Part shown: positions 2,181-62,058 of the stretch, one piece after another
Layout of the letters: each line of letters starts with the position of its first letter
Numbering within the stretch: position 1 is the stretch's first letter
Assembly (NCBI RefSeq): GCF_021390675.1
Contig: NZ_JAJEJV010000004.1
Span: forward strand, 3,410,001 to 3,474,000
Direction of reading: 5' to 3'
Source: Dyella sp. 2HG41-7
GTDB lineage: Bacteria; Pseudomonadota; Gammaproteobacteria; Xanthomonadales; Rhodanobacteraceae
DNA: 64,000 nucleotides
Position numbers and translations under genes: made by a program
Notes under the pieces: generated by a model
Seen by the model: only the letters and a program-made list of their open reading frames with translations
Database searches by the model: none
What the model was told of the DNA's origin: nothing

Positions 2181-3083
2181 ATTCGTCTCGCTTAGCAGTT
2201 GAGCCAAGGCGGTATCGAACGTTTGCGGATCGTCCACGAATACCGCGTGCCCCACATTCGCCACCTCTACGAATCGCGAACCTTGAATGTCGGACGCCAT
2301 CGCTTTTTGCGCATCGAGCAACGGCGAATTGGCTGATGCGATAACCAGCGTGGGACGATCGATTTTCTTCAGCGCAGGCCTGCGGTCTGCACCGAAGATA
2401 TCCGACACCAACATCGCGGCACCCACAGCGGGCGGCGTGCGTTGCGCTTGCGCGATCACCGCATCGATATCCGCCGCCGGATGCGGGCGCTTGAAAATGG
2501 AACGCACCATGCCGGCGCTGTAATCCGCAGGCTGCGACGCATAGCGCGACAATCCGGAGAGAATGGCCTTGGTGAATTCTTTTCGGATATCGACTTCGTT
2601 CGTACCTGCTGAGACCGGCGAATCCACAAACGCCACGCCATCGAGTGAACCGGTGCCGTATTGCTGCACATACGCGGCGACATCCTGCGCACCTTGCGAC
2701 CAACCCACCAATACACAATGTTCGACGTGCAACGATGCGAGCAATTCGTGTAGATCCTGCGCGCGGCGCTCCGGCGTGTTGCCGGTCAGCATGATCGACG
2801 ACGCGCCTTGCGAGCGCGAATCAACTGCAATCACGCTTCGATCGTTGGAGAAGCGCTGCAATTGTTCGCGCCACAGCGTTGCCGTCAATGTCCAACCTGG
2901 TATCAGCACCAAGGCTGGCGCTGTGTGGCTGTCGCCGGCCCGAAGGTAATGAATGCGCGCGCCATCGTCGGTTGTGAAATATCCGTCGTTGATCGCAGAC
3001 ACCGTCGTGTCGGCCTTACTTGCGCTCACACCGGCCATCAGTGGAATCAGAATCAAAGCGGCTAAACCTGTCAGCAGCTTCAT
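2160..3083 (-). CDS. Alpha/beta hydrolase, exported
   Basis: The 307-residue protein starts with a signal peptide (MKLLTGLAALILIPLMAGVS) and continues as an alpha/beta-hydrolase fold. The nucleophile elbow is GWSQGA, the oxyanion region is LIPGWTLTATLW, and the catalytic histidine is probably in NVGHAVFVDDP near the C-terminus. This arrangement fits esterases and haloperoxidase-like hydrolases; the substrate cannot be inferred. The ATG at 3083 is preceded by AAGGA at a good distance (7-8 bases); longer forms upstream would bury the signal peptide. It is convergent with, and overlaps, cdd. Confidence 0.85.
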   Translation of the reverse strand: MKLLTGLAALILIPLMAGVSASKADTTVSAINDGYFTTDDGARIHYLRAGDSHTAPALVLIPGWTLTATLWREQLQRFSNDRSVIAVDSRSQGASSIMLTGNTPERRAQDLHELLASLHVEHCVLVGWSQGAQDVAAYVQQYGTGSLDGVAFVDSPVSAGTNEVDIRKEFTKAILSGLSRYASQPADYSAGMVRSIFKRPHPAADIDAVIAQAQRTPPAVGAAMLVSDIFGADRRPALKKIDRPTLVIASANSPLLDAQKAMASDIQGSRFVEVANVGHAVFVDDPQTFDTALAQLLSETNSARGMK

Positions 3084-3207: not shown

Positions 3208-3777
3208 ATGCCCAACCCGCTCGCGCTGCTGCAACAACGCCATTCCGCACCCTCGCGCCAGCTCGGCGAACCCGCGCCCGATGCGGAGACGTTGCGCACC
3301 ATGTTGGAAGCGGCCATTCGCGTACCCGATCACGGCAAGCTCGTGCCATTTCGTTTGATCGCACTGCGCGGCGACGCGAAGTTGAAGTTCGGCGCGACGC
3401 TCGCTGAGCGCGCCATTCGCAACAACCCAAACCTGCCCGAAGCCAAGCGCGAAAAGGAACGCCTGCGCTACACCTTCGCGCCACTCGTGTTGGTTGTCGT
3501 GGCGCGTATCGATCAGGACGCAGGCATTCCGGAAATCGAGCAGAAACTTTGCGCCGGCAATGTGGCCTACAACGTCCTGCTCGGCGCTTATGCCATGGGT
3601 TACGGCGCGCAATGGCTTACGGGTTGGGCGGCGTATGATCGCGATGTGGCAGCCATGCTGGAACTGGCCGAGAACGAATGCGTGATCGGCTTCGTGCATA
3701 TCGGCACGCCGCAATCGGAAATTCCGGACCGAGATCGCCCGGCATTGAACGATCTCTTGAGCGAATGGAAGGGTTGA
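3208..3777 (+). CDS. Nitroreductase family protein (YdjA-like)
   Basis: A flavin (FMN)-dependent oxidoreductase of 189 residues. The N-terminus LLQQRHSAPSRQLGEPAPDAETL and the R-x-PDHGKL-x-PFR segment match the minimal YdjA type of nitroreductase. Later landmarks are NVAYNVLLGAYAMGYGAQWLTGW and IGFVHIGTP. Such enzymes reduce nitro compounds or quinones with NAD(P)H, but the natural substrate is unclear. I start it at ATG 3208 because this matches the family N-terminus; the open frame reaches further up without a ribosome binding site. The exonuclease gene follows after 4 bases, so the two are probably co-transcribed. Confidence 0.9.
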   Translation: MPNPLALLQQRHSAPSRQLGEPAPDAETLRTMLEAAIRVPDHGKLVPFRLIALRGDAKLKFGATLAERAIRNNPNLPEAKREKERLRYTFAPLVLVVVARIDQDAGIPEIEQKLCAGNVAYNVLLGAYAMGYGAQWLTGWAAYDRDVAAMLELAENECVIGFVHIGTPQSEIPDRDRPALNDLLSEWKG

Positions 3778-5271: not shown

Positions 5272-6320
5272 GCGCCTTGCTGTCTTAACGCGCGCACGCG
5301 CCACGCGGTCAGCACGATGCCCACGGCGGCAAGCGCGAACCAGGAAAGCGCCATCGAATTGTTGTTGCCGAGCCACAGCACTGTATCGACGGCGCCGATC
5401 ACCAACACCGCAATCGCCACAGTGAGTATCGGGTCGATTTGCGCGTAGTGCCATCGCACCAGCAATCCTGCACCAAGTATCGCGAGCAGCACCGCAAATA
5501 GACGACGCGCCACGGGATGTTCCGGCGGCAACGGCGAATCGGGAAAAAATTCCGAAAGCGGCACATCTCCGGACTGCACGGCAAAACCCGCCCCATCGGT
5601 GGCGTCGCTGGCAGGAATCAGTTTATTGCCGTCGACTTTCGCCACCACGGTGACGGTTTGCGTAGGGACGGCTTCCCACGTCACCCGCATATCGCCCAAT
5701 TGCGGATGCGATGGCACCGCGCTCGTGACCAGACCGTTGTCGTAGAGGCTAAAGCTCGCCGCAAGATTGCTCGGCAAATTGCGCAGATTCGGCGACACCG
5801 GCTGATTGCCGATCAGCGCGTGCACCAGGGCCGGCGCCAGCACGAAGTCGTTCATCCGCACGACGCCAGCGTCGAACTGCGCGCTCTCGATCGGAAATTT
5901 GCCGGGATTGGCGTGGCCTTCAGGATGTTCGAAATGGCTGGTATCGACAGGATGGTCGACCCAATCCAGTTCGTACGTCGCCGGGCCGCCGTAGCGCAGC
6001 TCGCGCCACTGGAACATCTGAACATGGCGAATCAGCGCCGGTTGATTGGTTTGCTGATTGAATTGCTGATCGAGCGGCGACTCGACCACTTGGAGGTCGC
6101 CCACGACGCGCACCATAAATCCCTGTTCGCTGGCGTCAGGATGGCCGGCGCTTCCCAAATCCATCACGTCGCCGCCGTGCCGCTTCATTTGCGCGCTGTA
6201 GTCGATCTGGCCTTTTTCGACGACGGCGCCGACGCCCACGCCGATTAGCAAAAGCACCGCACCCAAAGCGGGCCACAACAACTCACGGATGGAGAGGGGT
6301 GGCTTGCGCTCGCCGCTCAT
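5268..6320 (-). CDS. TMEM43 family membrane protein
   Basis: The 350-residue protein has one N-terminal transmembrane segment (about residues 13-31, LLWPALGAVLLLIGVGVGAVV), a large soluble part of about 240 residues, and a cluster of three hydrophobic segments at the C-terminus (about 265-340). This layout and the soluble motifs (HVQMFQWRE; FVLAPALVHAL; GDMRVTWE) match the TMEM43/LUMA family (DUF1625). The biochemical role in bacteria is unknown. The soluble part probably faces the periplasm. A ribosome binding site (GGAGG type, complement of cctccg at 6325-6330) precedes the start. Confidence 0.85.
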   Translation of the reverse strand: MSGERKPPLSIRELLWPALGAVLLLIGVGVGAVVEKGQIDYSAQMKRHGGDVMDLGSAGHPDASEQGFMVRVVGDLQVVESPLDQQFNQQTNQPALIRHVQMFQWRELRYGGPATYELDWVDHPVDTSHFEHPEGHANPGKFPIESAQFDAGVVRMNDFVLAPALVHALIGNQPVSPNLRNLPSNLAASFSLYDNGLVTSAVPSHPQLGDMRVTWEAVPTQTVTVVAKVDGNKLIPASDATDGAGFAVQSGDVPLSEFFPDSPLPPEHPVARRLFAVLLAILGAGLLVRWHYAQIDPILTVAIAVLVIGAVDTVLWLGNNNSMALSWFALAAVGIVLTAWRVRALRQQGA

Positions 6321-47018: not shown

Positions 47019-47141
47019 TACTCCAACTTCGCCGTCCGCACAAGTTGCAATTTGCGCCGCTTCACACCCACGGCACGGGCAGGTATTTCCGGCCATAGCA
47101 ACTATGGCCGACACTCCGTCTAAGGGTTAGGATGAGGCCAA

Positions 47142-47410
47142 GGGATGCGCTGACTCATTCTACGTTGGTGGCATGATGTCCAGAAGGCTTGCAGGATGTG
47201 TTGCGCGGCGCAGGGAAGACTGGCCGTCTTTTCAAGCCGCGCGACGCAGCCTGCGAGCCTTCTGGACATCACCCTTCGGGCCGGTCCTGTCTGTTCGCAG
47301 ATCACAGGGCCATCGGCGAAGGCAGACTGGCCGTCTGTCGAGACGATGGACCGAAGAGATGCGAACAGACAGGACCGGTGACACCTACGTAGAATGAGTC
47401 AGCGCATCCC
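47142..47410. repeat. Three-stem inverted-repeat element, copy A
   Basis: A 269-base non-coding element between lptB and rpoN. Outer arms: 47142-47165 and 47387-47410 pair perfectly over 24 bases. Inside are two long hairpins. H1 pairs 47175-47208 with 47237-47270 (34 bp, 4 mismatches; tip 47209-47236). H2 pairs 47281-47299 with 47360-47378 (19 bp, perfect; tip 47300-47359). Both tips hold the same core AGACTGGCCGTCT, which forms its own small hairpin. A ten-base linker (47271-47280) joins H1 and H2. The plan is that of a three-way junction. A second copy is at 61786-62058. No target duplication and no open frame of known family was found. It ends 18 bases before the rpoN ATG. Confidence 0.9.
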
Positions 47411-47428
47411 ACAACCCTTTCGCCAGGC

Positions 47429-48901
47429 ATGAAACCAGGGCTTCAGTTCCGTCTAAATCAACAGCTGGCTCTTACGCCACAACTGCAACAGGCCATTCGC
47501 CTGCTGCAATTGTCGCAACTGGAGCTGGCTGCCGAGTTGCGTCAACTTGCCGAGAGCAATCCGCTGCTCGAGTTCGCCGAAGATGCATCGGAAGAACAAG
47601 ACGAAACCGAAACCGATGGCGAATTCGAAAACGAATTCGATGCGCCGGTAACCGTCAGCAGCGATTCGGCATCGGGCAGCGACGGCAACGACGAGGCGCC
47701 GGATTGGGCGGAACCGGAAATGAGTTCCGACGAGCCGATCGATTTTTCGTCGTCCAACGGCAGCGGTAATTCGAACAATCGCGACGACGAAGGCATGGAA
47801 CCGCAGAATGCGGCGCCCGAGTCGCTGCAGGAACATCTGCTGTGGCAACTTAATCTCACACCGATGGATCCACGCGCCAAGGCCATCGCCACGGTGCTGA
47901 TCGACGCGCTTAACACCGACGGTTATTTGGAAGAAGGTCTCGATGCGGTGCTCGCGGCGCTTCCTCCGCACCTGAAAGCCACTCTCGAAGAAGTGGAAGC
48001 CGTACGCCGCCGATTGCAGCACTTCGACCCTGCCGGCGTGGCGAGCATCGACCTTCCCGATTGTCTTCGCGCTCAGCTGGAGCAGTTCGCGCCCAGCACG
48101 CCGCATCGGGACCTGGCGTTGCGCATCGTCGAAAACGAATTGGAACTCTTGGCGCGCAACGACATGGCCAAGCTCGCTCGCCGCCTGCACGCGACCGAGG
48201 AAGAAACCACCGGCGCCGCCTTGCTTATCCGCAGCCTGGACCCGCGTCCCGGCGCGGCGATGGACACCACGCCCGTCGAATACGTGGCGCCCGACGTCTA
48301 CGCCCGCAAGGACGGCACGCGCTGGCGCGTGCTCCTGAACCCGGACAGCCAACCCAAGCTCAGCCTCAACCAGCATTACTGCAGTCTTATCGCCCAGGCG
48401 CGCAGCGACGACGCCAGCTGGATGCGCGGTCAACTGCAGGAAGCGCGCTGGCTGATTAAGAGTTTGGAGTCTCGTGCCGAAACACTCCTAAAGGTCGCCG
48501 ACGCCATCGTGAGACGGCAAAGCGCCTTTCTGGACTACGGTCCGGAAGCCATGCAGCCGTTAGTGCTGCGTGAAGTGGCCGAGGAGGTGGGTATGCATGA
48601 GTCGACGATTTCACGTGTAACGACCCGCAAATACATTCACACGCCGCGCGGCACCTACGAGCTGAAGTATTTCTTTTCCAGCGGCGTGTCCACCGAGGAC
48701 GGCGGCAGCGCATCGGCTACCGCCATTCAAGCGATGCTGCGCAAGCTGGTCGACAACGAAGACCCGCGCAAGCCGCTGTCCGATCAGGCGCTCGCCGAAG
48801 AGTTGCACGGCAAAGGCATTCAGGTAGCGCGCCGTACGGTGGCGAAATACCGAGAAATTCTGCGCATTCCCAGTTCCAGCGAGCGACAACGCAGCAGTTG
48901 A
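47429..48901 (+). CDS. rpoN: RNA polymerase sigma-54 factor
   Basis: The alternative sigma factor for -24/-12 promoters that needs AAA+ activators. The 490-residue protein has the Gln/Leu-rich region I (LQFRLNQQLALTPQLQQAIRLLQLSQLEL), an acidic region II (about 50-130), the core-binding domain, the helix-turn-helix (EVAEEVGMHESTISRVTTRKYI) and the RpoN box ARRTVAKYRE (467-476). The ribosome binding site region is just after the repeat element, so that element may affect rpoN expression. Confidence 0.97.
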   Translation: MKPGLQFRLNQQLALTPQLQQAIRLLQLSQLELAAELRQLAESNPLLEFAEDASEEQDETETDGEFENEFDAPVTVSSDSASGSDGNDEAPDWAEPEMSSDEPIDFSSSNGSGNSNNRDDEGMEPQNAAPESLQEHLLWQLNLTPMDPRAKAIATVLIDALNTDGYLEEGLDAVLAALPPHLKATLEEVEAVRRRLQHFDPAGVASIDLPDCLRAQLEQFAPSTPHRDLALRIVENELELLARNDMAKLARRLHATEEETTGAALLIRSLDPRPGAAMDTTPVEYVAPDVYARKDGTRWRVLLNPDSQPKLSLNQHYCSLIAQARSDDASWMRGQLQEARWLIKSLESRAETLLKVADAIVRRQSAFLDYGPEAMQPLVLREVAEEVGMHESTISRVTTRKYIHTPRGTYELKYFFSSGVSTEDGGSASATAIQAMLRKLVDNEDPRKPLSDQALAEELHGKGIQVARRTVAKYREILRIPSSSERQRSS

Positions 48902-61653: not shown

Positions 61654-61785
61654 GAATCCATCCGTGACGGGATGCTCACCAGTGTAGCAGGGTGCCGGGA
61701 GACACCCGCCGCAAACGTGCGAGCAAGCACGTTATCGACACTTTGGCCCACGCCCCGCTTGAGTCCGGACCGGCCCGGTTGTTAA

Positions 61786-62058
61786 CTAGGGGCGCTCAGA
61801 TTCATTCTACGCAGGCGTCACCGGCTTGTCCGTTTGCATGCCACAGGACCATCGGCGAAGGCAGACTGGCTGTCTGTCAAGACGATGAGCCGAAGGCATG
61901 CAAACGGACAAGCCGGTCCGAAGGGTGATGTCCAGAGGGCTCGCAGGGTGTGTCGCGCGGCTTGAACAGACGGCCAGTCTGACCTGCGCCACGCAACACA
62001 CCCTGCGAGCTCTCTGGACATCATGCCGCCTACGTAGAATGAATCTGAGCACCCCTAG
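61786..62058. repeat. Three-stem inverted-repeat element, copy B
   Basis: A 273-base non-coding element between pssA and the DUF4124 gene. Outer arms 61786-61811 and 62033-62058 pair over 25 of 26 bases. The H2-type hairpin is first (61821-61840 with 61897-61916, 20 bp, perfect; tip 61841-61896), then the conserved linker, then the H1-type hairpin (61927-61960 with 61989-62022, 34 bp, 3 mismatches; tip 61961-61988). It is the reverse complement of copy A at 47142-47410, except that the H2 tip faces the other way. Stem sequences differ between copies but pairing is kept. The rest of the 439-base gap (61654-61785 and 62059-62092) holds nothing I can name. Confidence 0.9.

Follow-up and report, generated by a model that had tools for sequence, protein, structure and literature searches.

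A hairpin-rich repeat of Dyella and its relatives as a probable MITE with a putative IS5-type mover

Two non-coding blocks in the window (the whole 64,000-nucleotide stretch of DNA that was analysed) are very probably copies of a single MITE family of the Rhodanobacteraceae (Dyella, Rhodanobacter, Frateuria and Mizugakiibacter are among the matches), probably served in trans by an IS5-family transposase. An unnamed repeat of Dyella, a group of soil bacteria, and its relatives is thus given a kind and a likely mover. In the model that we propose, such a transposase would recognise the terminal repeats (GGATGCTCTGATYNATTC...) and insert the element into intergenic CTAG- or TTAA-like (YTAR) sites, with duplication of 4 bp. 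The first-pass annotation had offered a non-autonomous mobile element as one of its readings, and this reading is now strongly supported by the dispersal of the element, its 4-bp target duplications, empty sites in relatives and a transposase-bearing relative that shares an end with it. The same annotation knew of no named family with this layout, which held across Rfam and the literature searched, where the element is undescribed (ISfinder and subscription papers were outside the comparison). The unusual parts of this MITE are its conserved hairpin tip and a body that is common to several end types.

Two copies of one element in the window

Copy 1 lies between genes that are presumably lptB and rpoN (these names, like pssA and DUF4124 below, are provisional) and spans 47143-47409 on the plus strand (267 bp). 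It had been placed at 47142-47410, a span that stands except for its first and last base, which fall in the flanks when the ends are set as in other copies. The left terminal inverted repeat (47143-47173, plus strand, starting GGATGCGCTGACTCATTCTACG...) and the right one (47379-47409, plus strand, ending 19 nt upstream of the rpoN ATG at 47429) close the block with the perfect 24-bp inverted repeat first described, within 32-nt arms that match at 94%. Between them lie hairpin A (47174-47271, plus strand; arms of 36 nt, 89%; tip AGACTGGCCGTCT at 47217-47229), the linker CCCTTCGGG (47272-47280, plus strand) and hairpin B (47281-47378, plus strand; arms of 35 nt, 83%, with a perfect basal 19 bp; tip at 47324-47336), so the two long inner hairpins reported at first pass are both present. 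The linker has 9 nt rather than the ten counted there and can form a tiny hairpin (CCC-TTC-GGG); a 287-bp form of the family has about 20 nt more here. Copy 1 is an unusual form, since 84 of 86 copies have the interior of hairpin B the other way round.

Copy 2 spans 61790-62054 on the minus strand (265 bp). Its neighbours are pssA, on the minus strand, and a DUF4124-like gene on the plus strand, and it has hairpin B at 61820-61917 (minus strand, tip at 61863-61875) and hairpin A at 61926-62023 (minus strand, tip at 61968-61980). It had been called a second copy with the same plan; it is indeed the same element, running in the reverse direction and with hairpin B of each copy inverted relative to the other. 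Both hairpins of both copies carry the tip AGACTGGC(C/T)GTCT, with one base altered in one copy 2 tip, exactly as had been noticed for the shared core AGACTGGCCGTCT. Terminal arms are 24-32 nt long in both copies.

The ordered layout is genuine. Folded as single-stranded DNA, copy 1 reaches -122.3 kcal/mol, whereas its shuffles average -48.3 (z -19.8; equalled by none of 200 shuffles), and copy 2 folded as RNA has a z of -18.7. In the list of frames of at least 100 aa, copy 1 contains no reading frame and copy 2 is overlapped solely by chance-looking frames, in agreement with the statement that the block encodes no transposase.

Dispersal, target duplications and a candidate mover

The mapping of copy number, insertion sites and empty sites that the first-pass annotation had suggested gave a consistent picture of a mobile family. 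In the genome from which the window comes (4.26 Mb, 4 contigs), about 28 separate places match copy 1 by blastn, and there are 17 near-full-length copies, copy 1 included, the other 16 being 68-82% identical to it; the tip core occurs 43 times, compared with 0 for the reversed control pattern. The element was found in 14 of 15 other Dyella genomes and, outside the genus, in 8 of 21 genomes of the same family, with weak matches in three of the eight; none of 24 genomes from other families of the order has it. The tip B pattern, with one mismatch allowed, was found in the genome under study only among 369 genomes of the class (few of them close relatives). Distant blastn of copy 1 against plasmid and phage collections gave no match, and Rfam gave none to either block (at gathering scores the window yields a tRNA alone). 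The one Dyella genome without the element (G007) has no element match, terminal end or tip core, and both the lptB and the pssA neighbourhoods are present in it; it has either lost the element fully or was never colonised.

We collected 111 elements, requiring matching ends and a tip with at most one mismatch, so that copies without a tip are under-counted. MITEs are under about 600 bp long, and 86 of the 111 elements measure 260-292 bp. In all but one of the 74 copies that can be oriented by the hairpin A tip, the distance from the left end to this tip is 74 or 75 nt. Perfect 4-bp target duplications flank 27 of the 111 elements, compared with 8.8 for shuffled flank partners, and 24 of these 27 are CTAG or TTAA (17 CTAG, 7 TTAA, 2 CTTG and 1 CAAG). 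The two main targets are never mixed across one element (0 mixed, versus 17 CTAG and 7 TTAA matched; Fisher p 3e-6). The other 84 copies have no perfect duplication, probably because of their age. An IS630-type reading, with a 2-bp TA duplication, was dropped, given that young copies show 4-bp CTAG or TTAA duplications.

Both window copies interrupt sites that are empty in relatives. The copy 1 site is without the element in 15 of 15 other Dyella genomes, some uninterrupted relatives reading ...GCCAAGTTCACC..., and the copy 2 site is without it in 14 of 15, with the intact target GTTAACTAG in 13 of these 14 (G004 reads GTTAACTAC); in the remaining genome, G005, this position is occupied by a shortened element, about 140 bp long. 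The first-pass annotation had seen no target duplication. This is wrong for copy 2, where flank comparison, together with the empty sites, identifies CTAG on both sides (61786-61789 and 62055-62058), which reads the same on both strands and had for this reason been taken as part of the inverted repeat; the statement may hold for copy 1, whose flanking 4-mers differ (CAAG at 47139-47142 on the left, CACA at 47410-47413 on the right), so that its duplication is decayed or absent. No copy lies inside a reading frame as judged by a rough caller, and among the 91 copies whose neighbours could be called (those with short flanks or an unclear setting being left out) the gene context is tandem in 54, divergent in 23 and convergent in 14. 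At the level of sequence, dispersal and target duplication of the element are thus established.

In a review, prokaryotic MITEs (for example, QMITE2 of Coxiella) are described as short, gene-less and intergenic, with terminal inverted repeats, direct repeats and transcripts for which stable stem-loops are predicted, and as thought to derive from insertion sequences (PMC10969869). Like these MITEs, the Dyella element is short, gene-less and intergenic and has terminal inverted repeats and direct repeats; unlike them in general, it lies nearly entirely in stems, carries two inner hairpins with a common conserved tip, and has a body that occurs with at least two types of terminal repeat.

The dispersed, palindromic and intergenic character of the element, at about 28 places in one genome, is also what would be seen if a RAYT (REP-associated) transposase had spread a REP/BIME-type repeat. 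A REP/BIME unit is, by general description, a palindrome of about 20-40 nt without target duplication, whereas the element is a much longer fixed unit (267 or 287 bp) with terminal inverted repeats and 4-bp target duplications, larger and more ordered than REP or BIME units as already stated at first pass, and an IS5-type partner has the same end; we regard this explanation as highly improbable. ERIC, Correia/NEMIS, BOX and RUP are likewise dispersed, intergenic and foldable, with other sequences and other mobilising families, and it is by these general descriptions only that the Dyella element is set apart from them.

The candidate mover is an insertion sequence of the Dyella genome G003, with left end GGATGCTCTGATTTATTCC and right end GGATGCTCTGAACAATTA. 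One copy (L117) is about 1.2 kb long with TTAG and CTAG in its flanks, its sister copies L111 and L116 have TTAG/TTAG duplications, and G005 holds a relative with similar ends (L112). The left end of a further G003 copy (L092) continues with ACGT and shares 23 identical bp with the end of L101, a MITE copy that G003 also carries, which gives the element an end in common with an IS5-family element. The MITE ends resemble the left end only, over about 20 bp; the right end of the insertion sequence has only about the outer 11 bp in common with the MITE end. The L117 protein matches the NCBIfam IS5 family transposase profile NF033581 with 309 bits (cut-off 140) over positions 1-259 of 285, and because its frame stops 26 positions before the profile end its activity is uncertain; a piece from L092 matches Pfam DDE_Tnp_1. 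IS5 duplicates YTAR (PMC10359306). The Dyella element agrees with the family in its 4-bp CTAG/TTAA duplication and in sharing its left end with an insertion sequence that matches NF033581, and differs in having no transposase gene and in that both of its ends resemble the left end. Together, the shared end and the type of duplication point to an IS5-type transposase as the putative mover.

This transposase piece has matches in 5 of 16 Dyella genomes at E 1e-20, and several copy-rich genomes, the one under study included, have none. The latter genome has no DDE_Tnp_1 match anywhere, compared with a match in 9 of 14 control genomes, and its copies, including the two in the window, are therefore probably stranded, as fossils of earlier transposition.

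Paired stems and conserved tips

The body of the element is a pair of long hairpins whose stems drift yet remain paired and whose tips keep AGACTGGC(C/T)GTCT. Many copies of the same long palindromes offer a natural test of whether compensatory changes arise by structural selection or by template switching. Double changes were found at 72 of 83 consensus pairs over 71 aligned copies (alignment A1, which omits the two copies with an inverted hairpin B and near-identical copies at 93% or more). For the stem counts, rows L065 and L152 were also left out because an extra inserted hairpin makes them align poorly, leaving 69 rows. The 2001 cells of the terminal stem then consist of 1644 majority pairs, 296 other Watson-Crick pairs, 27 G-T, 27 A-C and 7 other combinations (296 variant Watson-Crick cells versus 61 non-Watson-Crick). 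Among row pairs 80-84% alike, which are not independent of one another, both arms have changed at 5395 stem pairs and a single arm at 3247, compared with about 1304 and 11428 expected if the arms changed independently, and the ratio of both-arm to one-arm changes climbs from 0.8 to 2.8 with divergence (again over non-independent row pairs).

Orthologous copies were also compared. Seven candidate pairs were considered and six aligned (L039/L053 was left out), and two were accepted; L005/L095 was not counted because of a large deletion, and the other three had bad alignments or different insertion points. In the first accepted pair, L008 of the genome under study and L055, the 34 differing columns comprise 18 that belong to pairs altered in both arms, 11 single changes and 5 unpaired, and two of the 11 'single' changes are the halves of a 1-bp length difference found in both arms. 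In the second pair (L042/L177), 13 differences affect one arm and none affects both, so the matching of arms is not constant. The interior of hairpin B is inverted in two of 86 copies, copy 1 and L031.

Template switching homogenises the arms of palindromes and inverts their spacers, as two papers report (PMC8604942; PMC8794818). Because arm homogenisation and spacer inversion are its known marks, we take replication template switching, with moderate confidence, to be the most likely main cause of the pairing: one arm of a palindrome would serve as template for the other, giving both-arm changes and, occasionally, an inverted interior such as that of hairpin B in copy 1. This process is expected to leave the marks seen here in non-coding mobile DNA (changes in both arms, a length change common to both, an inverted interior), and they carry the warning that covariation by itself is no proof of a functional RNA.

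Conservation of the tips is uneven. In the 17 near-full-length copies of the genome under study, which were found by blastn regardless of their tips, 32 of 34 tips are exact (allowing C or T once), the other two having one mismatch and two mismatches. Over 33 rows that were not fetched by tip, tip B has a mean majority fraction of 0.93 and stem B one of 0.81; over 69 rows the tip B value is 0.94, which is inflated because 36 rows were fetched with the exact tip B pattern. The wider region of tip A is no better conserved than its stem (0.89 versus 0.91 over the 33 rows, and 0.88 for both over 69 rows), and tip A of L008 differs by two changes from that of its orthologue. The hairpins also show a strand preference in their pairing. 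Hairpin A has 220 G-T cells versus 20 A-C (21 columns versus 4, sign test p 0.0009) and hairpin B has 70 versus 98 (7 columns versus 18, p 0.04); the bias of RNAalifold towards G-U over A-C was avoided by repeating the test on geometric pairs. Because the tips point in opposite directions, it is in both hairpins the strand reading AGACTGGC on which G-T is better tolerated. A role of both hairpins in single-stranded form is hinted at, in a test weakened by shared ancestry.

Such observations fit an account in which selection, and not template switching, keeps the hairpins as DNA hairpins or cruciforms, a protein of the host or of the element itself being bound to their tip. Exact tips in copies that are only 68-82% like copy 1 overall, the excess of tip B over stem B, the 43 tip cores versus none for the reversed control, the persistence of the tip with at least two types of terminal repeat and the G-T tolerance of each hairpin on the tip-reading strand all argue for it. 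It is nevertheless the less favoured of the two accounts and, in our judgement, a tentative one: the region of tip A as a whole is not above its stem in conservation, the tip B value over 69 rows is inflated, L008 has changed tip A twice relative to its orthologue, related copies make the counts non-independent, the binding protein is putative, and interior-inverted copies occur at two places (L001 and L031), so the arrangement of the tips is not strict. A narrower claim, that the tip matters in cis for propagation, we hold at about even chances, because the tip outlives changes of stem and of terminal repeat; in our model it would act in cis in this way.

Alternatively, a transposon could have spread a structured RNA (riboswitch-like or a small RNA) whose entire three-way fold is transcribed and selected. 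This would likewise leave extensive covariation, such as the double changes at 72 of 83 pairs, and would fit the far higher number of G-U than A-C cells on one strand of hairpin A (220 versus 20) and the place of copy 1 in a probable rpoN leader (see below). The terminal stem, however, has no strand preference (27 G-T, 27 A-C), which argues against selection on a single transcript of the whole three-way structure, and hairpin B leans the opposite way from hairpin A (70 G-T, 98 A-C), so that no single transcript is favoured. Tandem, divergent and convergent gene arrangements are all seen, Rfam has no matching family, and the 1-bp length difference in orthologues is common to both arms. We therefore rate an RNA function as improbable and retain template switching as the preferred reading of the paired stems.

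Other terminal repeats and the surroundings of the window copies

The hairpin body is not tied to one kind of end. A scan of named contigs gave at least 120 stretches with an exact tip B, among the listed matches being contigs from Dyella, Rhodanobacter, Frateuria, Mizugakiibacter, Lysobacterales/Lysobacteraceae MAGs and one MAG labelled Eremiobacteraeota. Of 120 of these stretches, 58 lie in elements with the first type of end, 26 near locus edges and 36 elsewhere. By reading we found a second end, GGC(A/G)AC(G/A)CTGA..., at the start of 26 of these 36; nine start with the first end, most of them at loci that the collection included before, and the last, L139, has yet another end. Truncation or loss of a hairpin is seen in some of the 36. 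Rhodanobacter and relatives have the two-hairpin body with tip AGACTGGC(C/T)GTCT under another terminal repeat. A collection of 24 second-end elements, one of which (L047) has a diverged end, includes 10 with perfect duplications, six of TTAA and two of CTAG among them.

A rather doubtful but specific extension is that the body is a separate module, with head-to-head hairpins such that each strand offers one readable tip AGACTGGC(C/T)GTCT, recognised by a trans-acting protein while single-stranded (in replication, transposition or transcription), and that it either passed from one type of terminal repeat to another or outlasted them, two types at least being involved. If so, mobilisation would need both transposase ends and a hairpin-tip signal; we know of no such requirement for IS5-type elements.

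Several minor observations concern these relatives. The element L139, at about position 1058, has the same tip within yet another terminal repeat and CTAG on both flanks. A 17277-base contig labelled Candidatus Eremiobacteraeota (L151, G008:C239) bears a Dyella-type element, equals in length a contig of G008 in the Dyella set and is probably from a mislabelled MAG. In different species an extra hairpin stands beside tip B (L016/L070, L017/L069, L065, L088, L152, L189 and L193). One of its sides reads ...GAGGAGCGAGGAAGG... and the opposite one GCACGCGGGGAG... or a variant of this; it is either a nested repeat or the mark of a sub-family. In D. flagellata (G012), L086 (5846-6019), L079 (1869) and L073 (4453) contain or adjoin paired TAGGCTGGGAT...AATCCCAGC hairpins that resemble REP/BIME. 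The same genome has contig ends with the same terminal repeat and a different interior (L071 at 3005-3066, L078 and L084), perhaps the ends of further insertion sequences that share this end; among plasmids, the G012 end with this terminal repeat had no match.

Returning to the window, copy 1 stands directly before rpoN. Upstream of this gene the sequence GGGTTAGGATG (47124-47134) is kept in 16 of 16 Dyella genomes compared; its distance to the rpoN ATG is about 25 nt in the other genomes and about 290 nt here, owing to the insertion. GGGTTAGGATG is probably the rpoN promoter, and if it is, copy 1 lies in the rpoN leader and would probably be transcribed within it, as part of the leader transcript. 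In this genome the rpoN start codon is separated from a conserved promoter-like sequence by a 267-bp insertion that folds strongly. Near copy 2, an inverted repeat AACGTG-8-CACGTT lies upstream of pssA (61714-61733), was seen by eye in 10 of 15 other Dyella genomes and is a possible operator.
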